64,000 bases of DNA from Bacteroides fragilis NCTC 9343 (GTDB lineage: Bacteria > Bacteroidota > Bacteroidia > Bacteroidales > Bacteroidaceae): the NCBI RefSeq assembly GCF_000025985.1, contig NC_003228.3:5022001-5086000 (forward strand), given 5' to 3'. The notes under the pieces are model-generated. The model worked only from the letters and a program-made list of their open reading frames with translations, was not told the origin of the DNA and searched no databases. Both the position numbers and the translations under genes were made by a program. Shown here one piece after another: positions 1,727-24,614 of the stretch. How positions within the stretch are numbered: the stretch's first letter is position 1; every line of letters begins with the position of its first letter.

Positions 1727-2145
1727 AAGTTCTAACTGGACTTATTCTTTGTCCTATATATTGTTTGTTCTAAATCAGTTTTCTCAAAATTCCATCTACT
1801 ACCGATGGAATACAGATTCGCCTCTAAATCCTTATATGGGACAAAAATAAAACGAATTTTAATAAGAAGCAAGAGATATTAATAAAATATTAAAAAATAT
1901 AGGTTCACATTTACTATTTTATTTTTGATATATAGAGTGTCCCTTGTAAAAAAATGAAAGAATAAATCTTTTTGGGTAGAAACTTTGAATTGATTATTCG
2001 CTTATATTATTACTTTTTTCTGTAATATTTTCCGTAAAACTAACCATTTGTCTATTGCATATTTACGCATATCTATCTTTTCATATCACATTTCGTGTGA
2101 TAATCAACCATATATATTCCTTCTATCCAAGTTCAGTTAGAACTG
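1727..2145. promoter_or_regulatory. Putative invertible promoter segment 1 (upstream of SusC1)
   Basis: The segment is bounded by two inverted 17-bp sites. The left site (1727-1743) reads AAGTTC-TAACT-GGACTT and the right site (2129-2145) reads AAGTTC-AGTTA-GAACTG. The spacers TAACT and AGTTA are exact reverse complements, and the arms differ at two positions. Six-bp inverted arms around a short asymmetric spacer is the usual form of a tyrosine-recombinase crossover site. The segment carries a good Bacteroides promoter on the - strand (1842-1872), pointing away from SusC1. The right site ends 231 bp before the SusC1 start codon. Phase-variable promoters of this kind are established for B. fragilis; inversion here is inferred from sequence only. 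Confidence 0.75.
1842..1872 (-). promoter_or_regulatory. Promoter inside invertible segment 1, pointing away from SusC1
   Basis: On the - strand, TTG (1872-1870), a 20-bp spacer and TATTTTTG (1849-1842) fit the Bacteroides -33/-7 consensus. Inversion of 1727-2145 would turn it towards SusC1. Confidence 0.65.
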
Positions 2146-2258
2146 AGATAGCATTTATACCTATATTGCAAATAAACGAAATATATATACACTATTATAA
2201 AACATGACAAAATAATCCAAATGCCCCCTTTAAATAACTAAAATATAATTTTTAAGAA

Positions 2259-2376
2259 ATGCCTATGACAAAGTAAAGACACAAAAAACTAAATGATACG
2301 GAGGAACACATTTCCATCTGTACAATCAAATCTTGAAAGAATTAACAAACGAATGTTTAACCGAACAATTTAGTGT
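2259..2376 (+). promoter_or_regulatory. Conserved SusC leader with two mini-ORFs (copy 1)
   Basis: Two very short open frames precede SusC1: MPMTK-stop (2259-2276) and MFNRTI-stop (2353-2373). The second stop is separated from the SusC1 ATG by a single codon (TGT) in the same frame. The same two elements in the same order occur before SusC2 and SusC3. This suggests a leader that acts by translation or as a translational-coupling device; no experimental support is known to me. Confidence 0.5.
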
Positions 2377-5300
2377 ATGACAGAAAAAACTAACCTGTTT
2401 CCGAGCCTAATCCGGTTTCGAGAAACAAATCGCCTGAAAATGGCAATCGCTGCTTCTATTATGCTATGGTGTGCTACACCTCAGCAAGCGGCAGCCGATA
2501 CTTACGAAAAACACGAAATCGCCTCCGTACAACAGCAGAAAGTGAAAACGACAGGTACGGTAGTGGACCAGAACGGAGAAGCCATGATCGGTGTATCCGT
2601 CAAAGTAAAAGACAATGCTACCATGGGTGCCATTACTGACCTGGAAGGAAAGTTCTCTATCGACACCCCTAAAGGCGCTACACTCGAAATCTCCTACATT
2701 GGTTATAAAACCGTTACAGTCAAAGCAGAAGGTACAGCTCTCAACATTACGATGCAAGAGGATGCCGAAGTATTGGATGAAGTTGTTATCGTGGGCTATG
2801 GTTCACAGAAAAAAGTGAACGTAACCGGCGCTGTAAGTATGGTAGACTCTAAGGTAATTGAGTCACGTCCGGTCTCTAACGTATCACAGGCTTTGCAAGG
2901 TGTGGTTCCGGGTTTGAACTTGACAGTTCCTACTGCCGGTGGCGCATTGGATGCAGGAATGAATATCAGTATCCGTGGTGCGGGTACGATCGGTGACGGA
3001 TCCAGTTCTTCTCCTTTAATCCTTATCGATGGTATGGAAGGAGATATGAACAGTATTAATCCTAACGATATCGAAAATATTTCTGTATTGAAAGATGCTG
3101 CCGCATCTTCTATCTATGGTTCACGTGCCCCGTTTGGTGTTATCCTGATCACTACCAAGAGTGGTAAAGCAGGCCGCACAAGCGTTAATTATAGCACTAA
3201 TGTCCGTTTCAAATCTCCTATGTCGATGCCGGAAATGATGGACTCATGGAGTTTTGCCAACTATTGGAACGAGGCCGGTATCAACCAGAACGGTAATATC
3301 AAGTTCACTCAGGATGTAATGGATAAGATTCTGGCATTCCAGCAGGGAACCTTAACAGGACCGGATGCTGCCGGAATTTCCTGGCAAGACGGTGAGTGGA
3401 AGAAATATGCCGGTGCATGGGCCAATACAGACTGGTTTAAAGAACAGTATCACAGCATCGTATCCAATGAGCACAACATATCAGTGAATGGAGGTACAGA
3501 TAAAGTGACTTATATGGTTTCAGCCGGTTACATGGGCGATAAGGGACTGACTCGCCATGGAGATGACCGCCTGACTCATTATAACCTTTCAGGTAAAATC
3601 AACGCAACACTTTCTAAATATGTGAAGTTAATGTATAACACCAAATTTATTCGTGAGGATTATGACCGTCCCTCTTACCTGACGAGTAATTTCTACCACA
3701 ATATCGCTCGCCGCTGGCCGACCAATCCGGTAAAAGACGCCAATGGATATTATCTGGATCATAGTGAAATTATTCAGATGGAAGAAGGTGGACGTGATGT
3801 GACTCAAAAAGATCAATTCTATCAACAGATTCAGTTGGTTGTTGAGCCTTTGAAAGACTGGTTGATCCATGCTGAGGGTAACATGAAGATTGTCAATAAT
3901 CAGAATCAGTGGGAAGTATTGCCTGTATATTATCACGATGGCGAGGGAAGCCCTGTTGCCATGGCATGGTTCGACGGATATACTCCGGGAATGTCACGTG
4001 TCAACCAAAGTTATTGGAAAGACAACAATTATTCTCTAAACCTGTATACTGATTATTTCAAGCAGATCGGTGATCATTACTTTAAAGTGATGGGAGGTTT
4101 TAATGCCGAATTGTATAAACGGACAAACTTATCAGGACAGCGTGATGAGTTGATCACTCCGGATGTTCCGACATTGAATACCGGTACTACTGAACAGAAA
4201 GCAAATGGTGGTTACTCCCACTGGGCAAATGCCGGTTTCTTCGGTCGTATCAACTATAACTATAAAGAACGTTATTTGTTGGAAATCAATGGTCGCTATG
4301 ACGGATCTTCCCGTTTCATCGGAGACAAACGTTGGGGCTTCTTCCCATCATTCTCTGCCGGTTGGAATGTTTCTCGCGAACCCTTCTGGAGAGATCTGGA
4401 ACACATTGTGAATAATTTCAAGATCAGAGGTTCATGGGGTGAATTGGGTAACTGTAACACAACTGCTTTCTATCCTTTCTATCAGACAATGCCTACAGGT
4501 GTTGAAAACAGCGGTTGGCTGATCAATGGAAAGAAACCGAATACAGCTTCTGCACCGGGCATTGTGAGTGCTGAAATGACATGGGAAACCGTTCGTTCAT
4601 GGAATATCGGTTTTGACTTCGGTTTACTCAACAATCGTTTGACGGGTTCATTTGACTATTTCGTTCGTAATACACTTGATATGATTGGTCCGGCTCCACA
4701 ATTACCGGCAACACTGGGTGCTACGGTTCCTAAGGTAAACAATGCGGATATGAAAGCATGGGGTTTTGAAGTGGAAGTTTCTTGGAGAGACCGTATTAAA
4801 GATTTTAATTATGGAGTGAAATTCGTTCTTTCCGATGACCAGAGAAAGGTAACACGCTATCCGAACGAAGAACTGAATAGAAACCAGTGGTATGCAGGAA
4901 GAATGGATGGTCTGGTTTGGGGATATGAGACAGTAGGTATTGCCAAGACAGATGCGGAAATGGAAGCACACCTGGCTTCATTACCCAATGGAGGACAAAG
5001 CCAGCTAGGTAGTAAGTGGGCTGCCGGTGACATCATGTACAAAGACCTGAACGGAGATGGTAAAATTTCTTCGGGAGACGGTACTTTGAATGATCTCGGC
5101 GACTTAAAGGTGGTAGCCAATACTCAATTACGATTTAAATATGGTTTGACACTAGATGCATCCTGGAAAGGTTTCGATTTCAGTGCTTTCTTCCAAGGAG
5201 TAGGCAAGCGTGATGTTGTTGTCGGAGGACCGTATTTCTGGGGAGCTAACGGACAAGGAATGTGGCAGGCTGCTGCTTTCAAAGACCACATGGATTATTT

Positions 5301-5655
5301 CCGTCCGGAAGATACAGAAAGTGTATTTGGACCGAATGTAGATGCCTATTATCCGAGAGTCATCTTTGGCGGTGGCAGCAGTGAAGGTGGAAAGAATACT
5401 CTGACACAGTCACGTTACGTACAGAACGGTGCTTATATTCGTTTGAAGAACTTACAACTGGGTTATACTTTACCAAGCACTATCACAAAGAAATTTGCTG
5501 TAAATTCACTTCGTGTATATGTTTCGGGAGATAACTTATGGACAGGTACAAAGATGAGGGTATTCGACCCTGAAGTACTGGGTAGCACCGGTGATGCAGG
5601 AAAAGCATATCCTTTGGCAAGAGTGTGGTCTGTTGGTCTTAACGTAAACTTTTAA
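2377..5655 (+). CDS. SusC-like TonB-dependent transporter 1
   Basis: Outer-membrane TonB-dependent oligosaccharide importer of the SusC/RagA family, 1092 aa, which works with the SusD-like lipoprotein encoded next. An extended basic N terminus leads into a signal peptide ending near residue 41. A carboxypeptidase-D-regulatory-like Ig domain (about 58-130) follows, then a TonB-box-like stretch (LDEVVIVGYG), a plug domain (about 145-265) and a 22-stranded barrel ending in aromatic Phe (GLNVNF). There is no STN signalling domain, so control by an ECF/anti-sigma pair is unlikely. The first 460 bases are about 93% identical to SusC3, while the rest is much more divergent. The gene lies downstream of an invertible promoter segment. 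The substrate is not determined by sequence; the locus context suggests host mucin-type glycans. Confidence 0.95.
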   Translation: MTEKTNLFPSLIRFRETNRLKMAIAASIMLWCATPQQAAADTYEKHEIASVQQQKVKTTGTVVDQNGEAMIGVSVKVKDNATMGAITDLEGKFSIDTPKGATLEISYIGYKTVTVKAEGTALNITMQEDAEVLDEVVIVGYGSQKKVNVTGAVSMVDSKVIESRPVSNVSQALQGVVPGLNLTVPTAGGALDAGMNISIRGAGTIGDGSSSSPLILIDGMEGDMNSINPNDIENISVLKDAAASSIYGSRAPFGVILITTKSGKAGRTSVNYSTNVRFKSPMSMPEMMDSWSFANYWNEAGINQNGNIKFTQDVMDKILAFQQGTLTGPDAAGISWQDGEWKKYAGAWANTDWFKEQYHSIVSNEHNISVNGGTDKVTYMVSAGYMGDKGLTRHGDDRLTHYNLSGKINATLSKYVKLMYNTKFIREDYDRPSYLTSNFYHNIARRWPTNPVKDANGYYLDHSEIIQMEEGGRDVTQKDQFYQQIQLVVEPLKDWLIHAEGNMKIVNNQNQWEVLPVYYHDGEGSPVAMAWFDGYTPGMSRVNQSYWKDNNYSLNLYTDYFKQIGDHYFKVMGGFNAELYKRTNLSGQRDELITPDVPTLNTGTTEQKANGGYSHWANAGFFGRINYNYKERYLLEINGRYDGSSRFIGDKRWGFFPSFSAGWNVSREPFWRDLEHIVNNFKIRGSWGELGNCNTTAFYPFYQTMPTGVENSGWLINGKKPNTASAPGIVSAEMTWETVRSWNIGFDFGLLNNRLTGSFDYFVRNTLDMIGPAPQLPATLGATVPKVNNADMKAWGFEVEVSWRDRIKDFNYGVKFVLSDDQRKVTRYPNEELNRNQWYAGRMDGLVWGYETVGIAKTDAEMEAHLASLPNGGQSQLGSKWAAGDIMYKDLNGDGKISSGDGTLNDLGDLKVVANTQLRFKYGLTLDASWKGFDFSAFFQGVGKRDVVVGGPYFWGANGQGMWQAAAFKDHMDYFRPEDTESVFGPNVDAYYPRVIFGGGSSEGGKNTLTQSRYVQNGAYIRLKNLQLGYTLPSTITKKFAVNSLRVYVSGDNLWTGTKMRVFDPEVLGSTGDAGKAYPLARVWSVGLNVNF

Positions 5656-5667
5656 TTGATACTTTTT

Positions 5668-7668
5668 ATGAAAATAACATTCAAATATATAACTCTATCT
5701 CTGTTGGCCGGAGCGTCTTTACTGACCTCTTGCGAAGATTTTCTGGACAGAGAGCCGTTGGATTCGGTTACTCCGGATACATATCTTAAGAATGAAAGTC
5801 AATTGGCTGCCTATGCTATCAATGCATACAGTTTCAATATTCATAGTGGATATAATGGAGGTCCGATCGTATCAGACAATGGCACTGACAATCAAGCTAC
5901 TGCATCACCCAATACGACTTATTGGGAACCGGGACAGTGGCGTGTAGGTACTTATGACGCATGGGGATTCGGCACTATCCGTAACCTGAACTATTTCCTG
6001 GAAATCGTGATCCCGCGTTGGGAAGCAGGAGAAATCGAAGGTGTTGAAAAGAACATTAAACAATATATCGGCGAGATATATTTCCTCAGAGCATGGGAGT
6101 ATTTCAGCAAGCTACAGAATCTTGGAGACTTCCCTATCCTCACTAAGGTATTATCTGATAAGAAAGAAGATCTTATCGAAGCAAGTAAGCGTCGCCCACG
6201 CAACGAAGTGGCACGTTTCATCCTTAGCGACCTGGATAAGGCTGCCGAACTGATGACTAACAGCCCCGTAGGTGGAAAAAATCGCCTGACACGTAACGCA
6301 GCATTACTGGTGAAGTCAAGAGTTGCTTTATCTGAAGCTACCTGGTTGAAATATCATAGAGGTACCGGACGTGTGCCGGGTGACGATACGTGGCCGGGAA
6401 AACAAAAAGATTACTTGAAGGACTTTACCATTAACGTCAATCAAGAAATTGACTTCTTCTTAACAGAAGCCATGGCTGCTGCCAAAGAAGTAGGAGATCA
6501 GATCACATTGACTGTGAACAGTAAAGAGGTGAATCCTACCTCTTCAGCTTCGGGATGGAATCCGTTCTTTGAAATGTATAATTCTAAAAATCTGGAAGAT
6601 CTGTCAGAAGTTGTATTCTGGAAAGCTTATGATAAAGCACTCAGTGTAAACCACAATGCTACTTATTACACTTCTCGTGGAGGTGGTAATTATGGTTTTA
6701 CAAAGGGATATGTCAAGACGTTCCTGATGGAGAACGGTTTGCCATGGTATGCTTCGAACAGCCAATATCAAGGAGATGACCATATCTATAAAGAGTTTCA
6801 GAACAGAGACTACCGTTTGAGACTGTTCTCGGCTTCGGAGTTGGATAGACTGCAAATGAAACAAGAGCCGGTAGAGAGTGATCCGACGACATGGAACGTA
6901 CCTAAGATCCTGGAATTACCGGAAGGAAGAAACGTAACCGGTTACCACATCCGTAAAGCCATGTCATACGAAATAGCTCAGGGAAGCGGTGGTGATACTC
7001 ACTTCTTGTCTGATTACGGCTGTGTTGTATTCCGTGGTGTAGAAGCTATGTTGAATTACATGGAAGCTTGTTACGAAAAGAACAGCAACCTGGATGCTAC
7101 CGCAGAAAGTTACTGGAAAGCAATTCGTACACGTGCAGGTGTAGATCCGGATTTCAACAAAACAATTGCTGCTACTGATTATACTAAAGAAGATGACTGG
7201 GCTATTTATTCAGCTGGTCAGCCGGTAGATAAAACATTGTATAATATCCGTCGTGAACGTAGATGTGAGTTCATTGCAGATGGCATGCGAATGTGGGATT
7301 TGAAACGTTGGCGTGCGCTCGACCAAGTGAAGAATTATGTTATCGAAGGATTCAACCTGTGGGGAGGCGGTGCTGCTGAACTTTATAAAGACGATAAAGG
7401 TGAAAGTCGGTTGATTACAACCGGTGATCAAGCAAATGTTTCAAGTCAGGCTGCAAGCGGCAATAACTTGTGCCCTTACAGAATGACAGAAAAAAACAAT
7501 ACAATGTATAATGGATATACATGGACACCGGCTTGCTACTTGTATCCAATCGTATTCAGTGATTTCATGCTTTCATCTCCTGATGGTGATGTGAACAACT
7601 CACCTATTTATCAGAATCCGGGATGGCCTATTGAGGATGGTGCTTCAGCATTGGAATTACCGAATTAA
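5668..7668 (+). CDS. SusD-like glycan-binding lipoprotein 1
   Basis: Surface lipoprotein of the SusD/RagB family, the lid and glycan-binding partner of SusC1. It is 666 aa from the ATG at 5668, 12 bases after the SusC1 stop; an upstream in-frame TTG directly after that stop is less likely. The signal peptide ends in the lipobox L-T-S-C with Cys22 as the lipidated residue, followed by the family's typical DFLDREPLD. TPR-like SusD_N helices and a C-terminal RagB/SusD domain follow, including the NIRRERRCEF and W-D-L-K-R-W motifs near the C terminus. It resembles SusD3 more than SusD2. Co-transcription with SusC1 is expected. Confidence 0.95.
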   Translation: MKITFKYITLSLLAGASLLTSCEDFLDREPLDSVTPDTYLKNESQLAAYAINAYSFNIHSGYNGGPIVSDNGTDNQATASPNTTYWEPGQWRVGTYDAWGFGTIRNLNYFLEIVIPRWEAGEIEGVEKNIKQYIGEIYFLRAWEYFSKLQNLGDFPILTKVLSDKKEDLIEASKRRPRNEVARFILSDLDKAAELMTNSPVGGKNRLTRNAALLVKSRVALSEATWLKYHRGTGRVPGDDTWPGKQKDYLKDFTINVNQEIDFFLTEAMAAAKEVGDQITLTVNSKEVNPTSSASGWNPFFEMYNSKNLEDLSEVVFWKAYDKALSVNHNATYYTSRGGGNYGFTKGYVKTFLMENGLPWYASNSQYQGDDHIYKEFQNRDYRLRLFSASELDRLQMKQEPVESDPTTWNVPKILELPEGRNVTGYHIRKAMSYEIAQGSGGDTHFLSDYGCVVFRGVEAMLNYMEACYEKNSNLDATAESYWKAIRTRAGVDPDFNKTIAATDYTKEDDWAIYSAGQPVDKTLYNIRRERRCEFIADGMRMWDLKRWRALDQVKNYVIEGFNLWGGGAAELYKDDKGESRLITTGDQANVSSQAASGNNLCPYRMTEKNNTMYNGYTWTPACYLYPIVFSDFMLSSPDGDVNNSPIYQNPGWPIEDGASALELPN

Positions 7669-7783
7669 GGATAAAGAAAAACCTAACATTTTTCAATAGG
7701 TTATTTTCAATAAGCGATTTATCGCTACTACGTGAGGCCTGTAAAAGGAAATCGAATCCTAAGGTCTCACTAAGCTAAAAAAT

Positions 7784-7831
7784 CTTACCCAAGTTTACGC
7801 AGTTCAGCGTATTCTTGGGTAAGTTGTTTTT
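7784..7831 (+). terminator. Terminator of the SusC1/SusD1 operon
   Basis: A long hairpin: CTTACCCAAG (7784-7793) pairs with CTTGGGTAAG (7814-7823), with an inner TACGC/GCGTA stem, followed by TTGTTTTT. It lies 115 bases after the SusD1 stop. Confidence 0.85.
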
Positions 7832-8095
7832 AAATGGTATTAAGTGCCATTTGGGTTATTCCTTATTATAGCTTTTATCAGAGACAAGAATGGGATGGTA
7901 AAATATGGTGTATCGGAAACACTATAAAGTCACACCGTCCATCTCCACTTTCAGTTACATTCAAGTGCATGACCGGTGACTCCATCAATCTAATATTTCT
8001 ATTTTTATATTTCTTCCTTGGAGAGGGTATGGGGGAATCCGATTGTGTTTCCGTGCCTTTTCAAATTATTAGCAAAATAGCTTGTGATTTTTTCC

Positions 8096-8533
8096 AAGTT
8101 CTTTCAGTACTTAGGAATTATACGAAAAGACAACAGATAGCTCTTAGGACCAGTTAACCATTGCATTTGCAATTATTAGTATTTATTATGGGGTCAAAGA
8201 TAATAAGAAGTTAATATCCCCGCAACTTTTTACTATATTTTTTTATACCAACATAATTTATATAATAAAGATTTAATAGAATTAAGATTTTTATTTATCC
8301 GGTTAGCACTGAGATGGCAGAAGAAACATGCGGATAGCGTTCACAACTCTTCCCATAAACAATAATCAACTATATTTCAGATGCATATATAAGTAAAAGG
8401 TAGAAAATAGGTATTATACCTCCCACTCAGAAGCATTAAAATATTCGACCAAGCATCTTCACCGTTTTACACTCCGTTTAGTACACCATTAATAATCAAT
8501 CTAATACAGATGGTAAAAGTACTGAAAGAACCT
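8096..8533. promoter_or_regulatory. Putative invertible promoter segment 2 (upstream of SusC2)
   Basis: Bounded by AAGTTC-TTTCA-GTACTT (8096-8112) and AAGTAC-TGAAA-GAACCT (8517-8533). These match as inverted repeats at 16 of 17 positions, and the spacers are exact reverse complements. Length 438 bp; the right site ends 192 bp before the SusC2 ATG. The architecture matches segments 1 and 3, but with a different spacer, so recombination between loci should be disfavoured. The promoter inside (8195-8225, - strand) points away from SusC2. Confidence 0.75.
8195..8225 (-). promoter_or_regulatory. Promoter inside invertible segment 2, pointing away from SusC2
   Basis: On the - strand, TTG (8225-8223), a 20-bp spacer and a perfect TATCTTTG (8202-8195). 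This is the best consensus match of the three segments. Confidence 0.75.
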
Positions 8534-8621
8534 ATCTCATGTAGCTCTATTTTTTCCAGATAGCAATCAGCATAGTTCAGCAAGGTTATTGAACAGACTT
8601 AATATTATAAACCAAAAGCTA

Positions 8622-8725
8622 ATGCCTATGAGAACCTGAAAAAATCCCCTCAAACCGATGTAGATTAGACAGTCTGATCTATATCCTCCAAATCACATTT
8701 TATGTTTAACCGAATAATTTAATGT
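8622..8725 (+). promoter_or_regulatory. Conserved SusC leader with two mini-ORFs (copy 2)
   Basis: MPMRT-stop (8622-8639) and MFNRII-stop (8702-8722); the second stop is one codon (TGT) before the SusC2 ATG. Order and final spacing match copies 1 and 3, although the DNA between the mini-ORFs is unrelated. Confidence 0.5.
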
Positions 8726-11700
8726 ATGACAAAAAGAACTTGCCAATTTCCGAAGCACACATGCCTTCGAGAAATCAACTTTTTGAAGATAGCAGGTATC
8801 AGTCTCCTGCTATTCTGCACGACATCACAAATTGCCGTAGCAGACAGTTATGAAAAAAATGCTGTCACAGCCACACAGCAGAGTAAAACAGAGAAAATAA
8901 CAGGTAAAATAGTCGATGAGAGCGGAGAGGCCATCATCGGTGCCTCGGTAAAAGTACAAGGAAGCACTATCGGTACCATCACCAATATGGAAGGAGAGTT
9001 TATGATACCGAATGTCCCCAACAAGGCCGTACTCGAAATCAGCTACATCGGATACAAGCCCTTAGAAGTCGCTGTCGGAAAATCCAAAGATTTACGCATC
9101 ACGATGGAAGAAGACACTAAAACGCTGGATGAAGTCATCGTAGTAGGTTACGGTACGACTTCTAAACGTAAAACAACCGCCGCCATTGCCAGTGTCAATA
9201 CAGAAGACATTATCAAAGCACCGACGGCAAACATCACCCAAAGCCTGGCAGGACGTGCTCCCGGTCTGTTGGTCACAACCAGCGGAGGCGGTCTGAATAA
9301 CTTTTCCAGTGTCTCTATCCGTGGAGGGGGCACTCCGCTTTATGTAATAGACGATGTGATTTCCGAAGAGCGGGATTTCCGCAATCTGAATGCTGAAGAC
9401 ATCGATCAGATCACAATCCTGAAGGACGCCGCTTCTACCGCCGTTTACGGAGCACGTGCTGCCAACGGTATCGTAATGATAGTAACCAAGCAAGGCAAAG
9501 CAGGGAAAATGAGCGTCAATTATAACTTTAACTATAACTGGAGCCAACCTGCCAATATGCCCAATAAGCTGGATGCCCACGATGCAGCCTTCTACAAGAA
9601 CATGAGTATGACCAATGACGGATTGGCACCGGCCTATACGGACGATGAACTGGAACTGTTCCGCAACGGATCAGATCCACGCAGATATCCTAATACGGAC
9701 TGGCAAAAACTCTGTTTGAAGAACTTCGCACCGGAAATGCAACATACCCTGACTGTCACCGGTGGTAGCGAAAAGATAAAAGCATATACCTCTTTGGGGT
9801 TCTACGATCAGAAGTCACTCTATAAGTTCGATGTAAACAGTTTCAAACGCTACAACTTCCGCACAAATATCGTAGCAGATTTCAAAGAAATAGGTTTGAA
9901 AGTAACTTCCAGCATCGAAGCTTACAAAACGGACTTAAGATCGCCTAATGCCAAATCGGGAGACAGCTATTATCACACCTGGGGACACATCCAGAATAAA
10001 GCCCCCTGGGAAATAGCATACAATCCGAACGGACAAATATTCAACACACCGGATAACCCATTGATGGAGATCTCCCCCGACGCCGGATACACTAAAAACG
10101 AAAACCTCAGTGCCATAGCAAACCTCGCACTGGAGTGGAGCGTACCTTATGTACCGGGCCTACGATTGAAAGCACTGGGTAACTACCGTATCAACAACGA
10201 CAAGTCAAAAAGTTGGAAAAAATCACCTTTAGCATACGATTGGGATGGCAACCCCAACGATCCCGGTAAACCTTCACTGAGCAAGTCTTATTCAAACTGG
10301 TCATCATACACCGTACAAGGCTTTGCCAATTATGACCGTACTTTCAATCAGGTACACACAATCAGCGCCACAGCCGGTATCGAAGCCTATAAACTCTTTA
10401 AAGACGATGCCTCGTTATCCCGCGAAGAATATTTGCTGGACGTAGACCAGATCGGTGCAGGTCCTGTATCTACAGCCAAAAACAGTTCTTCGGAAGGTGA
10501 AGAAGCGCGTGCCGGTGTAGTAGCCCGACTGAGATATGACTATGCCAGCAAATATGTGGCCGAAGCCAGCCTCCGTTACGACGGTAGCGACAATTTCCCG
10601 CGAGGTAAACGCTGGGGAACATTCTATGCCGGCTCTCTTGCATGGGTCATTTCGGAAGAAAGTTTCTGGCAGACATTAAAAGACCGTCATATTTTCGACC
10701 AATTCAAGGTAAGAGCTTCTTATGGCGAGATCGGTTCAGACGCCATCAGACGCTATGCTTACCTGCAATCATACGGACTGAACGACCGTGGCTACCTGCT
10801 TAACGGAAGTTGGTATCCGGGATTTTCCGAAGGTGCCTTGGTCAGCAAAGACATTACCTGGTATACTACCTGCGACTTTAACATCGGATTCGATTTCGGA
10901 TCGCTCAACAACCGTCTTTCGGGTTCTGTAGACTATTTCCGCAAGAGCACCAAAGGTTATCTGACCTCTCCGTCGGCAGTAGCTTATACCGACCCGTTGG
11001 GCATCGCATTACCCCAAGTAAAGTCAAATGGCGAGTTCATCCGCCAAGGTGCCGAGTTCATCCTGCAATGGAAAGAGAAAAGAGGTGATTTTGAATACAC
11101 ACTTTCGGGCAATTTCACCTACTTCGACCAATACTGGAACATCAATCCGAACGAAGCGGAAACCGATACCAAGAACCCATACAAACGTACTACACAAGCC
11201 AAAGGATATTGGGGTATCGGATACGACTGCCTGGGTTATTATCAGAATCAGGAAGACATCATGAACTCACCCAAACGTCAGAGTTCCGTCAACTTAGGTG
11301 CAGGCGACCTGAAATACAATGACTTCAACGGCGACGGTATCATTGACGGTTCCGACCAGCACCGCATCGGCAAAAACAGTATGCCCCGCGGCCAATACGG
11401 CTTCAGTGCCGACTTGAACTACAAAGGCTGGTTCATGAACATGCTGTGGCAGGGAGCTACTCCGGCCGACCTTTATATGGGCGGTATGATTCAGGGAAGC
11501 CAAAGCGGCAGCGGTTATCCTCCTGTTATCTATGACTTCCAGACCGACGTATGGACTCCGAATAATACGGGAGCCCGCTATCCACGTTTGAGAAGTACGG
11601 CAAGCTACAACGGCAGTAACAACTACGGCAGCTCAGACTTCTGGCTGATCAACACAGGCTATCTTCGCCTGAAGACATTATCCATCGGCTACGACTTCAA

Positions 11701-11881: not shown

Positions 11882-11910
11882 ATAGTATGAACTTAAAAAG
11901 AAGACAATAT

Positions 11911-14453: not shown

Positions 14454-14461
14454 TACCTTTG
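14454..14461 (+). promoter_or_regulatory. Probable -7 element of the GH110 promoter
   Basis: TACCTTTG fits TAnnTTTG 54 bases before the GH110 start; no convincing TTG is present at -33. If real, it gives the enzyme gene a fixed promoter outside the invertible segments. Confidence 0.45.
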
Positions 14462-14514
14462 GATACCCAATTCATCTTATTCAATAATACATTTAAAGCA
14501 AGAGACTACATACC

Positions 14515-16332
14515 ATGAAAAAGTATCTGCACATCCTACCCGCCTGCTTTTTATTTTACGCTGCCGCCCATGCACAGCAGAAAGATACTGTCTACGTCAC
14601 CGACTTCGGAGCAGTCCCCTACTCGTACGAGAACTGTGTTACACAAATACAGGCTGCCATCGACGAATGTAAACGCACGGGAGCCAAAGTGCTATCGCTG
14701 CCCGAAGGCCGCTATGACATCTGGCCCGAAGGAGCCATCCGCAAAGAATACTACATATCGAATACATCCACCGAACAGGAATGTCCCTCAAAAGTAAAGA
14801 CCGTGGGACTGATGCTCCATGAAATCGATGACCTGACCATCGAAGGAAACGGAGCCACCCTGATGTATCATGGGAAAATGACGACCATCGCCCTGGAACA
14901 TTGCAACGGGGTGAGAATAAACAACCTGCACATCGACTTTGAACGTCCTGCAGGATCTGAGATTCAATACCGGAAAGTGACCGGAGGAGAAACTGAAGTA
15001 ACCCTGCACCGCGATACGCGTTATGAGATTGTGAACGGAAAGATCCGGCTGTATGGCGAGGGATGGCGTTCCAACAGGAATCACTGCATCGAGTACGACC
15101 CGGATACGGAATCTTTCACCTACAGCCAGGGGTGGAATACACTGTCGGCATCCGATGCCAGAGAGATTGCTCCGGGCATCGTCCGCTTCAATACCCCGGC
15201 GGAATTTATGCCCAAAGCAGGAAACACACTGACCGTCCGCGATATTATCCGCGACCAGGTGGGGCTTTTCATTCTTGAAAGCAAAAACATCACGCTGAGC
15301 AGGCTACAGATGCACTACATGCACGGGTTGGGCATCGTCAGCCAGTATACCGAAAACATAACGATGGACAGAGTCAAGTGTGCTCCCCGCCCCGATAGCG
15401 GCAGGTTATTGGCAGCCTCAGCGGATATGATGCACTTTTCGGGATGTAAAGGAAAAGTAATCATAGACAGTTGTTATTTTGCCGGAGCACAAGACGATCC
15501 GGTCAATGTGCACGGAACCAACCTGCGCGCCCTTGAGAAAATAGATGCGCAAACCCTGAAGTTACGCTTCATGCACGGACAGAGCTATGGATTCAACGCT
15601 TACTTCAAGGGAGATACCGTCGCCTTTGTCCGGGCAGCCACCATGGAACGCTTTGCCTCGGCAACGGTCAGGGACGTAAGGCGAATATCGGACAGAATAG
15701 TGGAAGTACGTTTCGACCGGGACATTCCGACAAGCCTGGAGCTCAATCACGATTGCGTAGAGAACATGACCTGTACCCCCGAAGTGGAAATACGTAACTG
15801 CTACTTCACACGAACCAGTACAAGAGGAACTCTGGTCACCACTCCAAGAAAGGTGGTGATAGAGAACAATACGTATTACAAGACGGGCATGAGCGCCATA
15901 CTGATTGAGGCCGACGCCGAAGGCTGGTACGAATCGGGACCGGTCAAAGATGTATTGATCAAAGGCAATACCTTTATAGACTGTGCCTATAATGGAGGCC
16001 CCGGCCATGCTGTGATCGCCATACATCCTTCCAACAAAATCATCGATGCCGAACGCCCGGTACACCAGAACATCCGCATAGAGGATAACACGTTCAGAAC
16101 ATTCGACTACCCGGTGCTCTACGCCAAGAGTACGGCAGGACTCTTGTTCAGGAACAACACCATCGTCCGCACGGAAACTTTTCCTGCCGTATCCGGCAAT
16201 CCGTACGTTTTCTATCTGAACGGCTGCAAGAAGGCAGTGATAGAAGGCACCGTATTCGAAGGAGAGACTCCCCGGCAGAGTATAAAAACAGAGAATATGA
16301 AAAGAAAAGACCTGAAAACAACGATCAAATAA
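14515..16332 (+). CDS. GH110 alpha-1,3-galactosidase
   Basis: Exo-alpha-1,3-galactosidase of family GH110, which removes terminal alpha-1,3-galactose, notably from blood group B structures. 605 aa, a length typical for the Bacteroides enzymes (GlaA/GlaB). A signal peptide (about 1-20, ending AHAQ) is followed by a right-handed parallel beta-helix rich in N-I-x-I-x-x-N-x-F turns. Asp304 and the pair Asp327-Asp328 (in A-Q-D-D-P-V-N-V-H-G) have the same 23- and 1-residue spacing as the three acidic active-site residues reported for the Akkermansia GH110 structure, so the active site looks complete. Family members differ in whether they need the branching fucose, and the sequence alone does not tell me which type this is. 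Likely periplasmic or exported. The DUF5009 gene follows 12 bases downstream. Confidence 0.92.
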   Translation: MKKYLHILPACFLFYAAAHAQQKDTVYVTDFGAVPYSYENCVTQIQAAIDECKRTGAKVLSLPEGRYDIWPEGAIRKEYYISNTSTEQECPSKVKTVGLMLHEIDDLTIEGNGATLMYHGKMTTIALEHCNGVRINNLHIDFERPAGSEIQYRKVTGGETEVTLHRDTRYEIVNGKIRLYGEGWRSNRNHCIEYDPDTESFTYSQGWNTLSASDAREIAPGIVRFNTPAEFMPKAGNTLTVRDIIRDQVGLFILESKNITLSRLQMHYMHGLGIVSQYTENITMDRVKCAPRPDSGRLLAASADMMHFSGCKGKVIIDSCYFAGAQDDPVNVHGTNLRALEKIDAQTLKLRFMHGQSYGFNAYFKGDTVAFVRAATMERFASATVRDVRRISDRIVEVRFDRDIPTSLELNHDCVENMTCTPEVEIRNCYFTRTSTRGTLVTTPRKVVIENNTYYKTGMSAILIEADAEGWYESGPVKDVLIKGNTFIDCAYNGGPGHAVIAIHPSNKIIDAERPVHQNIRIEDNTFRTFDYPVLYAKSTAGLLFRNNTIVRTETFPAVSGNPYVFYLNGCKKAVIEGTVFEGETPRQSIKTENMKRKDLKTTIK

Positions 16333-16344
16333 TCCCTTACGCTT

Positions 16345-18116: not shown

Positions 18117-21100
18117 ATGAGACTACATGTACTATCACTCACATGCCTGCTGCTTACAGTAGGAGGCACAGGGTCGGTCGCAGCCCAAAAGCCACAAAAC
18201 TATCCGTACGGTGTTCCTTCCGAACCCTGGGAGGAATCTTTCGGAAATCATCGGGCGGTACTGCAAATAGAAAAGCCGGCACAAATCGCGAACCTCGACT
18301 TCCAATGGCGGCGTCCGGACAAAGATGCAGGACACAGACGATTTCTTATCATCCACGCTGCAACGGGAGATACCATCCGGAATATCCGCCGGATAGAGGT
18401 GAACGACGAACACTGCCGTTTGCAGTTCGGTCCAGTGGAACAAAAAGGCACTTACTACTTCTACTACCTCCCCTACCAAGTGCAAAAGGGATACGGATTC
18501 TACAGTGGCGGATACCTTCCGAAAGAAAACGAACCGGATGCAGCTTGGCAGGCTCAAGGCGTGTCAACCCTGAAAAGCACTCGGGCCAAAGTGGTCAGAG
18601 TAGAGTCGCGGCAGGCTTTCGACAGTTTTTACCCGATGGAAGTTGCCGCAACGGCCCGGGAGAAAGAGAACTACATCAACCGGCACAAAGCCTCCCTCTA
18701 CCTCTTTGCCGAAGATCGCAGGTTCCCCATCCGGATGCGCAGCAACCTCCCCACCAAATGGCTGGCAGACAAACAGGGAAAACTGTTTCGGGGAGAAGCA
18801 GCCCCCAATGAATACTATACTTTCCAGATCGGGCTTTGGGCAGCCGTGAACCAAGCAGACAAGATTGCTTACCGGGCTTCTTCCCTGAAGTGCGGCCGGG
18901 AAATAATACCGGCAACAGCCATTACCTGTTTTAATGTCGAAGGTACCGATCCTTACGGAAAAGCGTTCAAAAAAGAAGTAAACGTCCCCAAAGGAGAGGT
19001 ACAGGCTCTCTGGTTCGGAATAGATATACCCGACGGGCAGAAGGAAGGTATCTATACAGGCACCATCACCCTCAGCGATGCCGACGGAGCACAAAGCTCG
19101 ATCCCCTTGAGTATACGGATTGCGGGAAAGGCATTGCCCGACAGAGGTGACAGTGAATTATGGAGATGCAGCCGCCTGAGATGGCTTAACTCGACATTGG
19201 GCATAGCCGATACACCTACCGCACCCTACACAGCCATGACTGTGAACGAGAACCGTATCGGTTGTCTCGGGCGTAGCATAACGATAGACGAAGGCACAGG
19301 ACTGCCCGCACAAATCCGTTCATGGAACAACGACGTGCTGAGCAGTCCCATAGAGTTTGTCATCCAAACCGCCGGTGGAGTGAAAAGCCTGAAAGCTGTC
19401 CCCGAACTGACGGAGCGGACAGAAGGCCATGTAGCAGGCAACTGGAAAGCCGAAGACGAAGATATGACAGTCAGCTGCAAAGCAATCATGGAGTTCGACG
19501 GATGGATAAACTACATATATACCATCACCCCAAAAAAGCAGATACAGGTGAAAGACGTCCGTCTGGTATTGCCGGTCAGGAATGAAATAGGAACTTATTT
19601 TCTGGGCATGGGGCTTCCGGGGCAACCTACTCCTCAACAGTATGACGGTAAATGGGATGCCCCCGAGAAAACGGTGAACAACTTCGGAGTGTCCATCCCC
19701 ACCTCCAAAGAGCAACAATGGCTGTGGCCGTTCGACAGTTTCTGGATCGGGAACGAGCATGCAGGTATCCACTGCGAATTCAGGGGAAGCACCTACAGCG
19801 GTCCGCTATTGAATCTGTACCGTCCGGCCTATCCGGAAAGCTGGTTCAACGGGGGTAAAGGCGGATTCGCCATACGGAAAGAGGCAGACGGAGTGAAAGC
19901 TGTGGCATACAGCGGAGAGCGCATGCTCGAAGCGGGCAGTTCCATTACATTTGATTTTGCCATGATCATCACTCCGGTGAAAATGCTGGATATGAAAAGC
20001 CAGTTTACAGACCGCTATTACCACAATGGCCCCAAACCCACACCTTCACAAGCCGACATCGAAGCAGGAGTACGCATCATCAATGTCCATCAAGGCAATG
20101 ACTACAATCCGTTTATCAACTACCCCTTCCTGACGGTAGACAAAATGAAAGAGTTCACCAAAGAGTGGCATGCCCGGGGATGTAAAATAAAGATATACTA
20201 TACGCTGCGCGAACTGAGTAATGCCACCGCCGAGATATGGGCCATCCGCAGCCTGGGAAACGAAATCCTGAGAGGCGGAAACGGCGGGGGATTCCCATGG
20301 TGCCGCGAGCACTTCGTGACGAACTACACACCGCAATGGTACGAACACTTTGACAATGCTGACAAGCAGGGTATCACTGCCGATGCATCTATCCTGACAG
20401 CCGAAGGAGACTCCCGATGGTACAACTATTATATAGAAGGATTGCGCTGGATGGTGCAGAACATGGACATCGACGGTATCTATCTGGACGACGTTTCCTT
20501 CGACCGCCGTATCCTGAAACGAATGCGCCGGGCTATGGAAAGCGTTAAGCCGGGATGCCTCATCGATTTACACTCGAATACGGGATTCTCAAGGGGACCC
20601 GCCAATCAATATACGGAGTTTTTCCCGTATGTAGATAAGCTGTGGTTCGGCGAAAGCTTCCTTTATGATAAAATGACACCGGCCAACTGGCTGGTCGAGT
20701 CATCGGGCATTCCTTTCGGACTGAGTGGCGACATGCTGTACAGAGGTGGGAACGCATGGTTGGGGATGCAATATGGAATGACCGTCCGTTATCCATGGTA
20801 CACCGAAGGAGTCAACTGCGATCCGCGCCAGGTATGGAAGATATGGGATTCATTCGGCATTGCGGAAGCCACCATGCTCGGGTTCTGGGAAGAACATCCG
20901 GCTGTAAGCACATCGGACGAAGCTGTCAAAGTCACTGTCTATCGCAAACCGGAGAAAGTACTGCTGTCTTTAGGTAATTATTCGGATGAAGTGAAAACCG
21001 TAAAACTGAATATAGACTGGAAACAGATCGGCCTGAACCCACAAAAGGCAAAGCTGACAGCACCCGAAATACCGGACATGCAACAGGCGCATGAATGGAA

Positions 21101-21164
21101 TGTAGACACACCGATAGTGACAGCCCCCCGGAAAGGTTGGATAATTTATCTTACCTCCGAGTAA
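18117..21164 (+). CDS. Putative exported glycoside hydrolase, DUF6067-like
   Basis: 1015 aa with a signal peptide (about 1-24, SVAAQ). The N-terminal half is beta-rich, resembling the Ig-like/galactose-mutarotase-like modules that precede catalytic barrels. The C-terminal half (about 640-930) looks like a TIM barrel: INVHQGNDYNPFINYPFL, KIKIYYTLREL, IDGIYLDD with Asp791-Asp792 at a strand end, and LIDLHSNTGF. The IDGIYLDD pattern is like the catalytic-strand motif of retaining barrel hydrolases. I relate it to the DUF6067 family from its overall layout, with moderate certainty. The reaction is unknown; position between GH110 and GH95 suggests it acts on the same host glycan. GC content is higher than in the flanking transporter genes. 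Confidence 0.75.
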   Translation: MRLHVLSLTCLLLTVGGTGSVAAQKPQNYPYGVPSEPWEESFGNHRAVLQIEKPAQIANLDFQWRRPDKDAGHRRFLIIHAATGDTIRNIRRIEVNDEHCRLQFGPVEQKGTYYFYYLPYQVQKGYGFYSGGYLPKENEPDAAWQAQGVSTLKSTRAKVVRVESRQAFDSFYPMEVAATAREKENYINRHKASLYLFAEDRRFPIRMRSNLPTKWLADKQGKLFRGEAAPNEYYTFQIGLWAAVNQADKIAYRASSLKCGREIIPATAITCFNVEGTDPYGKAFKKEVNVPKGEVQALWFGIDIPDGQKEGIYTGTITLSDADGAQSSIPLSIRIAGKALPDRGDSELWRCSRLRWLNSTLGIADTPTAPYTAMTVNENRIGCLGRSITIDEGTGLPAQIRSWNNDVLSSPIEFVIQTAGGVKSLKAVPELTERTEGHVAGNWKAEDEDMTVSCKAIMEFDGWINYIYTITPKKQIQVKDVRLVLPVRNEIGTYFLGMGLPGQPTPQQYDGKWDAPEKTVNNFGVSIPTSKEQQWLWPFDSFWIGNEHAGIHCEFRGSTYSGPLLNLYRPAYPESWFNGGKGGFAIRKEADGVKAVAYSGERMLEAGSSITFDFAMIITPVKMLDMKSQFTDRYYHNGPKPTPSQADIEAGVRIINVHQGNDYNPFINYPFLTVDKMKEFTKEWHARGCKIKIYYTLRELSNATAEIWAIRSLGNEILRGGNGGGFPWCREHFVTNYTPQWYEHFDNADKQGITADASILTAEGDSRWYNYYIEGLRWMVQNMDIDGIYLDDVSFDRRILKRMRRAMESVKPGCLIDLHSNTGFSRGPANQYTEFFPYVDKLWFGESFLYDKMTPANWLVESSGIPFGLSGDMLYRGGNAWLGMQYGMTVRYPWYTEGVNCDPRQVWKIWDSFGIAEATMLGFWEEHPAVSTSDEAVKVTVYRKPEKVLLSLGNYSDEVKTVKLNIDWKQIGLNPQKAKLTAPEIPDMQQAHEWNVDTPIVTAPRKGWIIYLTSE

Positions 21165-21173
21165 ACGTCACGT

Positions 21174-21217
21174 AGTCTGCACAAGATTCAAGGTTTTTCT
21201 TTATCTTTGTGCAGACT
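21174..21217. promoter_or_regulatory. GH95 promoter region with an 11-bp inverted repeat
   Basis: AGTCTGCACAA (21174-21184) and TTGTGCAGACT (21207-21217) are perfect inverted repeats 22 bp apart. The right arm overlaps TATCTTTG (21202-21209), a perfect Bacteroides -7 element 45 bp before the GH95 ATG. It could be an operator at the GH95 promoter, or a weak terminator of the upstream gene; no T-run follows it. Confidence 0.55.
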
Positions 21218-21253
21218 ATGACAAACCAATACTAACTCTAATAACACCCAAAC

Positions 21254-23743
21254 ATGAAGAAACTTTATTCACTTCTCCTCACCGCCCTGTTTGCCTTGCC
21301 GGCGGCGCATGTCCATGCCACCGACTACACGCAAGGGCTCTCCATCTGGTTCGACACACCGAATACACTACAAGGCAGAGCCATCTGGTATGGCAGCCGC
21401 CCCGATCTCTGGAAAGGAGAAAGCAAACCGGAGAGTGCAGGAGACACTGCCCGGAACCCCGATGCCAACTGGGAGTCGCAATCATTGCCCATTGGAAACG
21501 GAAGCATCGGAGCCAACATCATGGGCTCGATAGAAGCGGAACGCATCACCTTTAACGAGAAAACTCTCTGGAGAGGAGGACCTAATACTTCGAGAGGAGC
21601 CGATGCCTACTGGAATGTAAACAAACAGTCGGCACATGTACTGAAAGAAATACGCCAGGCCTTTACCGACGGAGACCAGAAAAAGGCCGAAATGCTGACA
21701 CGCAAGAACTTTAACAGCGAAGTACCTTATGAGTCGAACCGAGAAAAACCTTTCCGTTTTGGTAACTTCACCACAATGGGAGAGTTTTATATAGAAACCG
21801 GACTCAGTACAGTGAACATGAGTGACTATAAACGTATTCTCTCTTTGGATTCGGCATTGGCCGTTGTACAATTCAAGAAAGATGATGTAGCCTACGAACG
21901 CGATTACTTCATTTCCTATCCTGCCAACGTGATGGCAATCCGCTTCAAAGCCGACCGGCCGGGCAAGCAGAACCTTACTTTCAGTTACTCCCCCAATCCG
22001 GTATCGACAGGAAGCATGTCGGCAGACGGTGCCAACGGCCTCGCATACACTGCCCACCTCGACAATAACGGCATGCAATATGTAGTGCGCATTCATGCCA
22101 TTGCCAAAGGCGGAACACTATCGAACGCAAATGGAAAAATCACCGTAAAAGACGCTGACGAAGTAGTATTCCTTGTCACTGCGGATACCGATTATAAGAT
22201 CAATTTCGACCCGGACTTCAAAGACCCTAAAGCATATGTGGGAGTAAATCCTGCCGAAACCACCCGTCAATGGATGGACAATGCCGTAGCCATGGGATAT
22301 GATGTACTCTTCAAACAGCATTACGACGACTACGCCGCTCTGTTCAACCGGGTAAAACTACAACTGAACCCGGACGCACAAAGCGCCAACCTGCCCACCG
22401 GCAAACGCTTGCAAAACTACCGGAAAGGACAACCGGACTTTTATCTGGAAGAACTCTATTATCAGTTCGGACGTTATCTGCTCATAGCCAGCTCAAGACC
22501 GGGTAACATGCCTGCCAACCTGCAAGGCATCTGGCACAACAACGTAGACGGTCCGTGGAGAGTGGACTACCATAACAACATCAACATACAGATGAACTAC
22601 TGGCCGGCTTGCTCGACCAACCTCTACGAATGTACATTGCCGCTGATCGACTTTATCCGTACGCTGGTAAAACCGGGACAGAAAACAGCGCAGGCTTACT
22701 TCGGAACAAGAGGATGGACAGCATCGATCTCAGCCAATATCTTTGGATTCACCACGCCGCTTGAAAGTGAAGAAATGGCCTGGAACTTCAATCCAATGGC
22801 AGGCCCCTGGTTGGCAACGCATGTCTGGGAGTATTATGATTACACCCGCGACAAGAAATTCCTGAAAGAGACCGGATACGACCTGATCAAAAGCAGCGCC
22901 CAGTTTGCCACAGACTTTTTATGGCGCAAACCGGATGGAACTTACACCGCAGCTCCGTCTACCTCACCCGAACACGGACCGATTGACGAAGGAACCACTT
23001 TCGTTCACGCCGTAATCCGCGAAATTCTGCAGGATGCCATTGAAGCAAGCAAAGTACTCGGAGTGGACAGCAAGGAACGTAAACAATGGCAAGAAGTGCT
23101 GACACATCTGGCTCCCTACAAAGTGGGCCGCTACGGTCAGCTGATGGAATGGTCGAAAGACATCGATGACCCGAAAGACGAGCACCGCCACGTCAACCAC
23201 CTCTTCGGACTGCACCCGGGACATACGCTCTCACCCATCACCACACCCGACCTTGCCAAAGCTGCCAGAGTGGTACTTGAGCATCGCGGCGACGGAGCAA
23301 CCGGATGGAGTATGGGATGGAAACTTAACCAATGGGCACGTCTGCAAGACGGTAACCACGCCTACAAACTTTTCGGTAATCTGCTGAAAAACGGTACACT
23401 GGACAATCTGTGGGATACTCACCCGCCTTTCCAGATCGACGGAAACTTTGGAGGTACCGCCGGTATCACAGAGATGCTGCTGCAAAGTCACATGGGCTTC
23501 ATCCAACTATTGCCCGCACTTCCGGATGCCTGGAAAGACGGAAGCATCAGTGGAATCTGCGCCAAAGGGAACTTTGAGGTAGACTTGTCATGGAAAAACG
23601 GACAGCTTGCAGAAGCAACCATCTTCTCAAAAGCAGGCGAACCTTGTACGGTGAGATACGGAGATAAAACTCTCTCTTTCAAAACAAGTAAAGGAAAAGT
23701 TTATAAATTGGCTTTAGATGCAGACCGACTGGTTATCAAATAA
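21254..23743 (+). CDS. GH95 alpha-L-fucosidase
   Basis: Exported inverting glycoside hydrolase of family GH95, 829 aa, a typical length. It usually removes alpha-1,2-L-fucose from H-type structures; some relatives act on alpha-L-galactose. Signal peptide about 1-22 (HVHA). An N-terminal beta-sandwich (about 60-330) has the family [15 protein letters not shown] and [13 protein letters not shown] motifs. An (alpha/alpha)6 barrel follows. Residues matching the catalytic set of the Bifidobacterium enzyme AfcA are present: Asn442 and Asn444 in N-I-N-I-Q-M-N-Y-W, acid Glu573 in S-P-E-H-G, and Asp729 in Q-I-D-G-N-F-G-G. Intact. Together with GH110 it could strip blood group B antigen. It has its own promoter-like site and a strong terminator. 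Confidence 0.95.
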
Positions 23744-23767
23744 TACTTTATTATAATTCTATCAAAT

Positions 23768-23811
23768 AAAAATATCCCCGGAAGAAAAGTATTTTTTCCG
23801 GGGATATTTTT
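23768..23811 (+). terminator. Terminator of the GH95 gene
   Basis: A 13-bp perfect stem (AATATCCCCGGAA at 23771-23783 with its complement at 23796-23808) is flanked by A and T runs, 25 bases after the stop. Confidence 0.93.
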
Positions 23812-24154
23812 GCTTTATTACACAGAGTTCACTCCATCTGGAGAAGTATATTCATCATACAGAGATATCCAAACCTAATGTTACTGCCATCCGGATCTTA
23901 CTACTAACGTTCTACTATCTTTATTGTAAAATCCAAAAAGTATCCTATTTAACATTTTGGTATTTCTCAACTCCAACATTCCTAAATATAAACACTATTA
24001 AACAGAACCGGATAGAAAACCGGAACGAAAAGACAAAACCTTAATGTAAAGCCTCAAAACAAAAAGACAAAAAATTCTTCTCAGGAAAGAGGTGCTCATT
24101 ATTAATATTAAATAATGCTCACCTATATATTATGAGTGGAATAAAAGTGGGGTA

Positions 24155-24614
24155 TAGTTCTCACGGAACTTATCGTTATTCAAGTGTTTCTGCAAATGTG
24201 TCTTAACCTTTGGCCTGTTCTTGTATTAATACTTTTTTGTTAACTTAGGCTAACTTGTGTTTATAAAATCACAATATCTCTCGGCAAAGATGCGATAACT
24301 TTTAATAATATGCAAGAATTTATAATAATAATTTTCTTTATCACTGCTCTTTGCACCACTATTTTATTAAAAAGCAGCAGATAATGAATAAAACGTGCCG
24401 CCTCAGAGGAAGGTGGTAGAAAAATAAGCCTCTCTCTATTTGCAAAAGGTTAATCAGCGGGACTTAGTAGTTCCTGTATCATTTAACATAATCAGCTTCC
24501 CGGACCAATACGACTACCCGTACAGGTGAAATAATAAAGAAAAAGGACGAATCAGAAGGTTCGAAGTTATATAAAAGCCGATTTATCACTTTTTTCCAAG
24601 TTCCGTGAGAACTT
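24155..24614. promoter_or_regulatory. Putative invertible promoter segment 3 (upstream of SusC3)
   Basis: Bounded by TAGTTC-TCACG-GAACTT (24155-24171) and AAGTTC-CGTGA-GAACTT (24598-24614). The pair is a perfect inverted repeat over 16 bp, the best conserved of the three. Length 460 bp; the right site ends 209 bp before the SusC3 ATG. The segment holds a promoter on the - strand (24285-24315) pointing away from SusC3. Confidence 0.8.
24285..24315 (-). promoter_or_regulatory. Promoter inside invertible segment 3, pointing away from SusC3
   Basis: On the - strand, TTG (24315-24313), a 20-bp spacer and CATCTTTG (24292-24285), one mismatch from TAnnTTTG. Its place relative to the left site (114 bp) is like that in segments 1 (99 bp) and 2 (83 bp). 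Confidence 0.6.

Follow-up and report, generated by a model that had tools for sequence, protein, structure and literature searches.

Spacer-matched sites beside three SusC genes of Bacteroides fragilis NCTC 9343 also bound a transporter unit absent from two relatives

Introduction

In Bacteroides fragilis YCH46, the recombinase Tsr0667 carries out shufflon inversions at three SusC/SusD clusters and acts at nine other regions (available text of PMC4747536). The Tsr0667-controlled invertible regions were reported by Nakayama-Imaohji et al. (2009, J Bacteriol; as cited in the available text of PMC4747536 and PMC11852207). For strain NCTC 9343, fin regions and shufflons have been described (Cerdeno-Tarraga et al. 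2005), which the available text of PMC3090145 gives by region letter and without site sequences. Here, we analyze a 64,000-nucleotide stretch of NCTC 9343 ("the window"), positions 5,022,001-5,086,000 of a 5,205,140-bp contig in a two-contig genome. In the window, three switch-like segments, A, B, and C, lie 5' of three SusC genes. Their class is already known, namely, the invertible SusC/SusD promoters and shufflons of B. fragilis, and the fin regions and shufflons of this same strain are probably the same loci.

Like the Tsr0667 regions, as far as the available text describes them, the loci considered here are numerous and dispersed, include shufflons, and are probably inverted by a tyrosine recombinase at SusC/SusD genes; a candidate ortholog of the enzyme is encoded between SusC genes. 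Two features go beyond that description: pair-matched, locus-specific spacers in 25 genomes, for which a role in insulating loci from one another is not demonstrated, and the site-exact gain or loss of a unit consisting of a switch and its SusC/SusD genes. The Rci shufflon of R64 likewise employs one tyrosine recombinase, many sites, and shuffled coding segments. In Rci sites, a 7-bp core and the right arm are conserved and the left arm varies (available text of PMC11852207), whereas the sites here have near palindromic arms and a spacer that differs by locus. A search by title and start of abstract, with most subscription journals outside its scope, found no paper on matched spacers or on site-bounded SusC/SusD units.

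A further comparison is with CTnDOT, whose IntDOT integrates at unlike 5-bp coupling sequences and tolerates mismatch. IntDOT is also a Bacteroides tyrosine recombinase that uses a short variable stretch beside a conserved core. It moves a conjugative element, whereas the enzyme proposed here is a promoter invertase.

Paired Sites Upstream of Three SusC Genes

Segments A (1727-2145), B (8096-8533), and C (24155-24614) are 420-460 bp long and end 193-232 bp 5' of the SusC reading frame. Each is bounded by sites of the form AAGTTC-N5-GAACTT (window positions):

1727-1743, plus strand: site A-left, AAGTTC-TAACT-GGACTT; also the left edge of the 6,369-bp unit described below
2129-2145, plus strand: site A-right, AAGTTC-AGTTA-GAACTG
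8096-8112, plus strand: site B-left, AAGTTC-TTTCA-GTACTT; from strain comparison, the sole site at the empty junction of relatives
8517-8533, plus strand: site B-right, AAGTAC-TGAAA-GAACCT
24155-24171, plus strand: site C-left, TAGTTC-TCACG-GAACTT
24598-24614, plus strand: site C-right, AAGTTC-CGTGA-GAACTT

These sites come from a scan of the 64 kb for pairs with reverse-complement spacers, 100-3000 bp apart, and at most 6 summed arm mismatches. Exactly three pairs were returned, with 2 (A), 3 (B), and 1 (C) arm mismatches; in 20 first-order Markov simulations, no pair had 5 or fewer mismatches, and pairs with 6 averaged 0.05. The arms are degenerate at all three loci, most strongly in A and B. 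Within each pair, the spacers are exact reverse complements, and the spacers of A (TAACT), B (TTTCA), and C (TCACG) differ. Thus, the scan bears out an earlier sequence-only reading of this DNA, which proposed three co-located switches with common arms and locus-specific, matched spacers. Inverted sites around a promoter-sized segment directly 5' of a SusC gene, the arrangement of Bacteroides SusC/SusD invertible promoters, are present in all three cases.

A Transporter Unit with Both Ends in Sites

The finding most worth following is the exact presence and absence of one unit:

1727-8095, plus strand: unit A (switch, SusC, and SusD), bounded by A-left and B-left; absent from strains Q1F2 and S82

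Specifically, in Q1F2 (assembly G022) and S82 (assembly G017), the DNA aligned to window positions 1-1733 is followed directly by that aligned to 8096 onward. The missing 6,369 bp comprise switch A, SusC A, SusD A, and a downstream stretch. At the junction, the relatives have a single site, AAGTTCTTTCAGTACTT, flanked on the left as A-left is and continuing on the right as B-left does. Joining the window flanks in silico reproduces the relatives' site with no gap. A-left and B-left have only AAGTTCT in common at the junction; their spacers are unlike. In the window, A-left carries the spacer of A and B-left that of B, and both switches remain matched. Had the crossover been at the right spacer edge, we infer, neither switch would have stayed matched.

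The shortness of the identity at the junction invites an explanation by ordinary or illegitimate recombination through the 7-bp AAGTTCT microhomology, with no recombinase involved. Tandem SusC/SusD units are, moreover, paralogous (SusC A and SusC C are 64% identical) and could duplicate homologously, as the flanks of the G062 array (see below) illustrate. We regard this explanation as rather unlikely: A-left and B-left have no further homology in their 12-bp outer flanks, the right end of the unit carries TTTTTTCC 5' of AAGTTC, as is found at the inner side of the sites of other switches, and the probability that both ends of the indel fall inside sites by chance is ~1e-5 by a simple, after-the-fact estimate.

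Regarding the origin of unit A, the best match to SusD A listed in 94 other Bacteroides genomes is 53% identical (at most 12 candidates scored per genome), and in a database of 5.8 billion, the closest other listed protein is 61% identical; the cluster of SusD A itself has 1005 members. Scanning 84,980 species genomes revealed 74 loci. One, in a near-identical metagenome-assembled genome (99.4%), has unit A, in the same orientation as the window; the next reaches 51%. No donor was identified, the nearest candidates being that 61% protein and that 51% locus. Because SusD A lacks close relatives, these comparisons favor gain of unit A in B. fragilis over loss in the relatives.

Arrays of SusC/SusD units occur elsewhere. 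At one conserved locus in three species, G008 has a switch with spacer GATTA followed by SusC/SusD unit X; G062 has an AATTG switch with unit Y followed by a GATTA switch with unit X; and G014 has a GATTA switch with unit Z followed by a TTTCA switch with unit Y. Pfam confirms SusC in all three units and SusD in X and Y. Between G062 and G014, unit Y is 91% (SusC) and 90% (SusD) identical, with the alignment ending 7 bp before the site in both; SusC X and SusC Z are 39% identical. The same unit Y under AATTG and TTTCA, and GATTA over both X and Z, suggest that spacers go with the switch, not the transporter, and that units have been recombined around the sites.

Segments Bounded by This Site Class Invert

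Genome-wide, AAGTTCN5GAACTT with at most one mismatch occurs 51 times versus 19 times for a reversed control. A list conditioned on equal spacers, covering 35 chromosome stretches and the window, contains 17 spacer-matched pairs with at least 14 of 17 matching bases, those of the window included, plus one weaker match at a 603-kb locus. The sequence-only reading had called for a search for such pairs upstream of SusC genes. Outside the shufflon described below, 11 of 13 pairs have a reading frame of at least 970 aa within ~350 bp, and all nine such frames checked by Pfam encode TonB-dependent SusC-type receptors. For the pair at 3420 kb, a frame of this size lies 746 bp off, behind a small frame; the pair at 2831 kb has none. 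At this latter pair (2831961-2833446, spacer TTACG), 12 inner flank bases are identical, two oppositely oriented reading frames of ~207 aa lie between the sites, and a tyrosine recombinase is encoded 2.6 kb away. For exact sites at 744, 859, and 4701 kb, no partner was found, and they are due to chance or are decayed; AGGTT recurs in many genomes.

A switch at 2282 kb (spacer TCTTA), 5' of a SusC gene, is inverted in both Q1F2 and S82 relative to NCTC 9343, and its flanks are collinear. At 1.07-1.09 Mb, a shufflon contains four nested pairs with spacers ACGAA, TAAAC, CGTAT, and TTCGA. These pairs connect sites at three minus-strand SusC genes with a cluster of four matching sites (1,087,288-1,087,733), which separates a FecR-type gene from a fourth SusC gene and overlaps both. 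The Q1F2 assembly includes this shufflon twice, on contig C1 and on the 45-kb contig C2 (G022:C1:400000-419900 and G022:C2:15000-34900), in opposite orientations, with the inner 13.4 kb inverted. C2 is a leftover contig. The inverted block, as far as it is uniquely placed, extends ~11 bp beyond the TAAAC sites; a further ~410 bp are not uniquely placed, and homologous exchange within them may have produced this inversion. From the 2282-kb inversion and the Q1F2 shufflon orientations, it follows that segments bounded by this site class do invert.

In S82, contigs C6 (end 355344) and C8 (end 274721) terminate in a CATTA/TAATG site, the assembly having broken at a switch. Contig ends may thus reveal switches in draft assemblies.

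Spacers Match Within Pairs

Spacer matching was followed in 25 of 94 other Bacteroides genomes. To avoid circularity, exact sites 150-2000 bp apart were selected with the spacer ignored. In 17 genomes (those among the matches listed for G001 to part of G014, plus G014, G017, G022, and G031), 26 of 28 neighbor pairs have reverse-complement spacers, none has direct copies, and both misses involve one extra site. In 8 further genomes, picked for high site number, 17 of 18 pairs are reverse complements and none is direct. Pooled, 43 of 46 pairs match, none directly, while a chance match is expected in ~1 in 1024 pairs. The 17-genome test omits the Q1F2 contig C2, with the second shufflon copy, and G000, and its 150-bp limit drops a matching G031 pair at 139 bp. 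The pairs are partly non-independent, with close kin included (for example, G034 and G092, 98-99% identical in one compared stretch). Separate stretches of G041, G048, G078, G034, G092, and G020 served solely for pair scans or a single comparison. At this stringency, the majority of exact sites have no partner (the 17 genomes have 179 sites and 26 pairs, the 8 have 89 sites and 17 pairs), and the control counts indicate that many of these are chance occurrences. In NCTC 9343, 6 of 6 neighbor pairs at 150-2000 bp match (by eye, 50 of the 51 sites). Thus, the pair-matching rule is real, and the claim that spacer identity is kept within pairs holds across the genus.

Spacers can also differ between strains. 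The 4218-kb switch has CTGTA in both copies in NCTC 9343 and Q1F2 versus CAGTA in both copies in S82, with flanks ~88% identical (4218299-4218702 in NCTC 9343, G017:C5:237097-237509 in S82). Both copies have thus changed in concert.

The sequence-only reading went further, regarding the spacers as private addresses. According to this idea, selection keeps spacers different so that one recombinase can serve many loci without joining them. The 43 of 46 matched neighbor pairs fit, as does the shufflon, in which each of the four spacers pairs one site with one other. Orthologous loci also keep spacers while arms drift: in Q1F2, the 3839-kb switch has kept TTTCA with changed arms. To gauge avoidance between loci, far-apart sites within one genome were compared in the 17 genomes, and 7 of 1121 pairs have the same spacer. 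The expectation is 2.2 if all spacers are equally likely and 20.0 from pooled spacer frequencies, the latter inflated by orthologous loci whose spacers, common by descent, are counted in several species. Some of the 7 represent one event counted repeatedly or contig ends. The two expectations bracket the 7 seen, so insulation is not demonstrated as the reason for unlike spacers, and avoidance of shared spacers between loci is neither shown nor excluded. Sharing is below the pooled figure but not below the uniform one, TTTCA is used by both locus B and the 3839-kb switch, 1.19 Mb apart in NCTC 9343, and the boundary of unit A has the appearance of an inter-locus exchange product between unlike spacers. 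We therefore retain one site family, spacers matched in pairs, and a class that inverts, and abandon spacers as a barrier that prevents rearrangement between loci. Selection for private addresses is unlikely; because the pooled expectation leaves room for some avoidance, we do not put its probability lower.

At the 3839-kb switch (3839601-3839905 in NCTC 9343, G022:C1:3151620-3152505 in Q1F2), the DNA outside the right TTTCA site is unrelated between the two strains. Considered as another site-exact event, this break was rejected: it lies ~1 base from the site end and may be an intergenic replacement. S82 lacks this switch and its SusC, and the break there is not at a site.

A Candidate Recombinase

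The genome contains 28 integrase-family matches, two of which concern us:

714,211-715,392 of the genome, minus strand: candidate invertase, 393 aa, with Arm-DNA-bind_5, Phage_int_SAM_5, and Phage_integrase domains (Pfam)
55429-56382 of the window, plus strand: Xer-like tyrosine recombinase with SAM_1-type and integrase domains, not thought to be the invertase

The second, which we take to resemble XerC/XerD, is the only integrase-family match in the window, and the earlier statement that no dedicated invertase is encoded there was right in substance. The 714-kb gene is flanked by two divergent SusC genes, one without the usual start region, and a degenerate site (716,046) lies at the edge of a 385-bp inverted repeat common to both. 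By position and by its place between SusC genes, it is the probable Tsr0667 ortholog.

This Tsr0667-type recombinase is the likely enzyme of the switches. A site excess (at least 5 sites over control) is present in 21 of 42 genomes, NCTC 9343 included, that have a relative of the 714-kb recombinase with at least 70% identity, versus 5 of the 53 others (1 of the 27 whose relative is weaker, 4 of the 26 that have none). For a control recombinase at 3,239 kb, whose position suggests that it is tsr19, the excess is present in 19 of 56 versus 7 of 39 genomes (p=0.10) and, at a threshold of at least 49% identity, in 6 of 19 versus 20 of 76. In one genome (G040:C1:1498992-1511424), the 714-kb-type recombinase occurs twice, as inverted copies of equal score ~11 kb apart.

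That another of the 28 recombinases, or several, drives the switches, with the 714-kb enzyme a mere clade marker, would accommodate the 4 genomes that have a site excess and no 714-kb relative as well as the second recombinase 2.6 kb from the 2831-kb pair, but it is improbable given that presence of the 714-kb family tracks site excess while that of the control does not clearly do so, that the gene sits between two SusC genes, and that Tsr0667 is credited with three SusC/SusD shufflons and nine other regions (available text of PMC4747536).

Gene Content and Putative Promoters of the Locus

Pfam matches between window positions 2377 and 30126 identify three SusC/SusD pairs and three glycoside hydrolase (GH) family enzymes:

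2377-5655, plus strand: SusC-type TonB-dependent transporter A
5656-7668, plus strand: SusD-type lipoprotein A
8726-11881, plus strand: SusC-type transporter B
11887-13764, plus strand: SusD-type lipoprotein B
14515-16332, plus strand: GLAA-B (GH110-type) alpha-galactosidase-like protein
18117-21164, plus strand: GH123-type glycoside hydrolase
21254-23743, plus strand: GH95-type glycoside hydrolase
24824-28084, plus strand: SusC-type transporter C
28099-30126, plus strand: SusD-type lipoprotein C

Because SusC/SusD pairs occur together with GH110-, GH123-, and GH95-type enzymes, this region is likely a host-glycan utilization locus. Hairpins at 23761-23818 (3' of the GH95 gene) and 7777-7830 (3' of SusD A) are perhaps unit-closing terminators.

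All three switch segments contain, on the minus strand, the motif ATTAA-N-NANNTTTG, which resembles the Bacteroides -7 element (consensus match only):

1842-1863, minus strand: promoter-like motif in switch A, directed away from SusC A
8195-8215, minus strand: promoter-like motif in switch B, directed away from SusC B
24285-24306, minus strand: promoter-like motif in switch C, directed away from SusC C; its -7 element is off the strict consensus

Because these predicted promoters are all directed away from SusC, switches A, B, and C look OFF as sequenced. The eight transporter states put forward earlier are arithmetic only.

Discussion

With moderate confidence, we favor the reading that A, B, and C are inversion switches, operated by a Tsr0667-type enzyme, whose sites also bound gained or lost switch-SusC-SusD units. 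Each locus would be a tyrosine-recombinase switch of the B. fragilis SusC/SusD class that, using ~6-bp arms and a 5-bp spacer, flips a 420-460 bp promoter segment. We infer that inversion requires equal spacers, in which case the spacer of a locus would either stay frozen or change in both copies together. Between loci, spacers would pose no strict barrier. The same sites would serve as boundaries at which units of switch, susC, and susD join or leave the glycan locus. For unit A in particular, gain or loss would have taken place at the distal site of switch B, through exchange within AAGTTCT, where the left edges of the two spacers lie. Exchange there would leave A with TAACT and B with TTTCA, and both switches still paired.

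Several observations weigh against this reading. Tyrosine recombinases rarely exchange between unlike spacers. None of A, B, and C was found inverted: S82 and Q1F2 have B and C in the window's orientation, as the near-identical metagenome-assembled genome has A and B. Only one indel, that of unit A, is clean at both ends. The tandem array at 1115/1121 kb, where relatives have one unit, was not accepted as another clean insertion; its flanks, inner segment, and SusC/SusD body give conflicting affinities, making it a mosaic that is not site-exact. The two G062 switches have ~190 bp of near-identical outer flank in common, and that array could have formed by homologous duplication. The direction of the unit A event is not fixed because, with 93% junction identity between Q1F2 and S82, the window is closer to S82 (92-94%) than to Q1F2 (87-88%). 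Finally, the correlation between recombinase and sites ignores kinship, its 70% cut was set after viewing the list, and the group includes interrupted copies; 4 of 26 genomes without a 714-kb-type gene still have a site excess, and the control recombinase is a weak one, most of its 56 matches being paralogs.

The favored reading can be taken a step further. Integron cassettes are gene units that are bounded by recombination sites and accumulate in tandem, and the units discussed here are likewise site bounded and arrayed. A site-bounded unit coupled with an empty site in relatives, as in integrons, is found for unit A, in one clean case. Unlike in integrons, no integrase gene lies beside the array: there is no integrase-family match within it, and the nearest are the Xer-like gene at window position 55429 and another at 5012 kb, ~10 kb left of the window. 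Also unlike in integrons, each unit has its own promoter switch, the sites are those of the promoter switches, and the circle formed by unit A is hypothetical. We speculate, tentatively and aware that the idea is doubtful, that the switch sites are also attachment sites at which a chromosomal invertase captures circular SusC/SusD units despite unlike spacers, so that loci grow in an integron-like manner. If so, the left-edge crossover would let newcomer and resident both keep matched pairs, and a captured transporter would arrive with a working switch.

We consider it an open question how glycan loci in Bacteroides take up new transporters, and another how a single invertase can act at many switches while leaving the chromosome unscrambled. 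Should the sites double as ports through which transporter units enter, a single mechanism would underlie both phase variation and gene gain.

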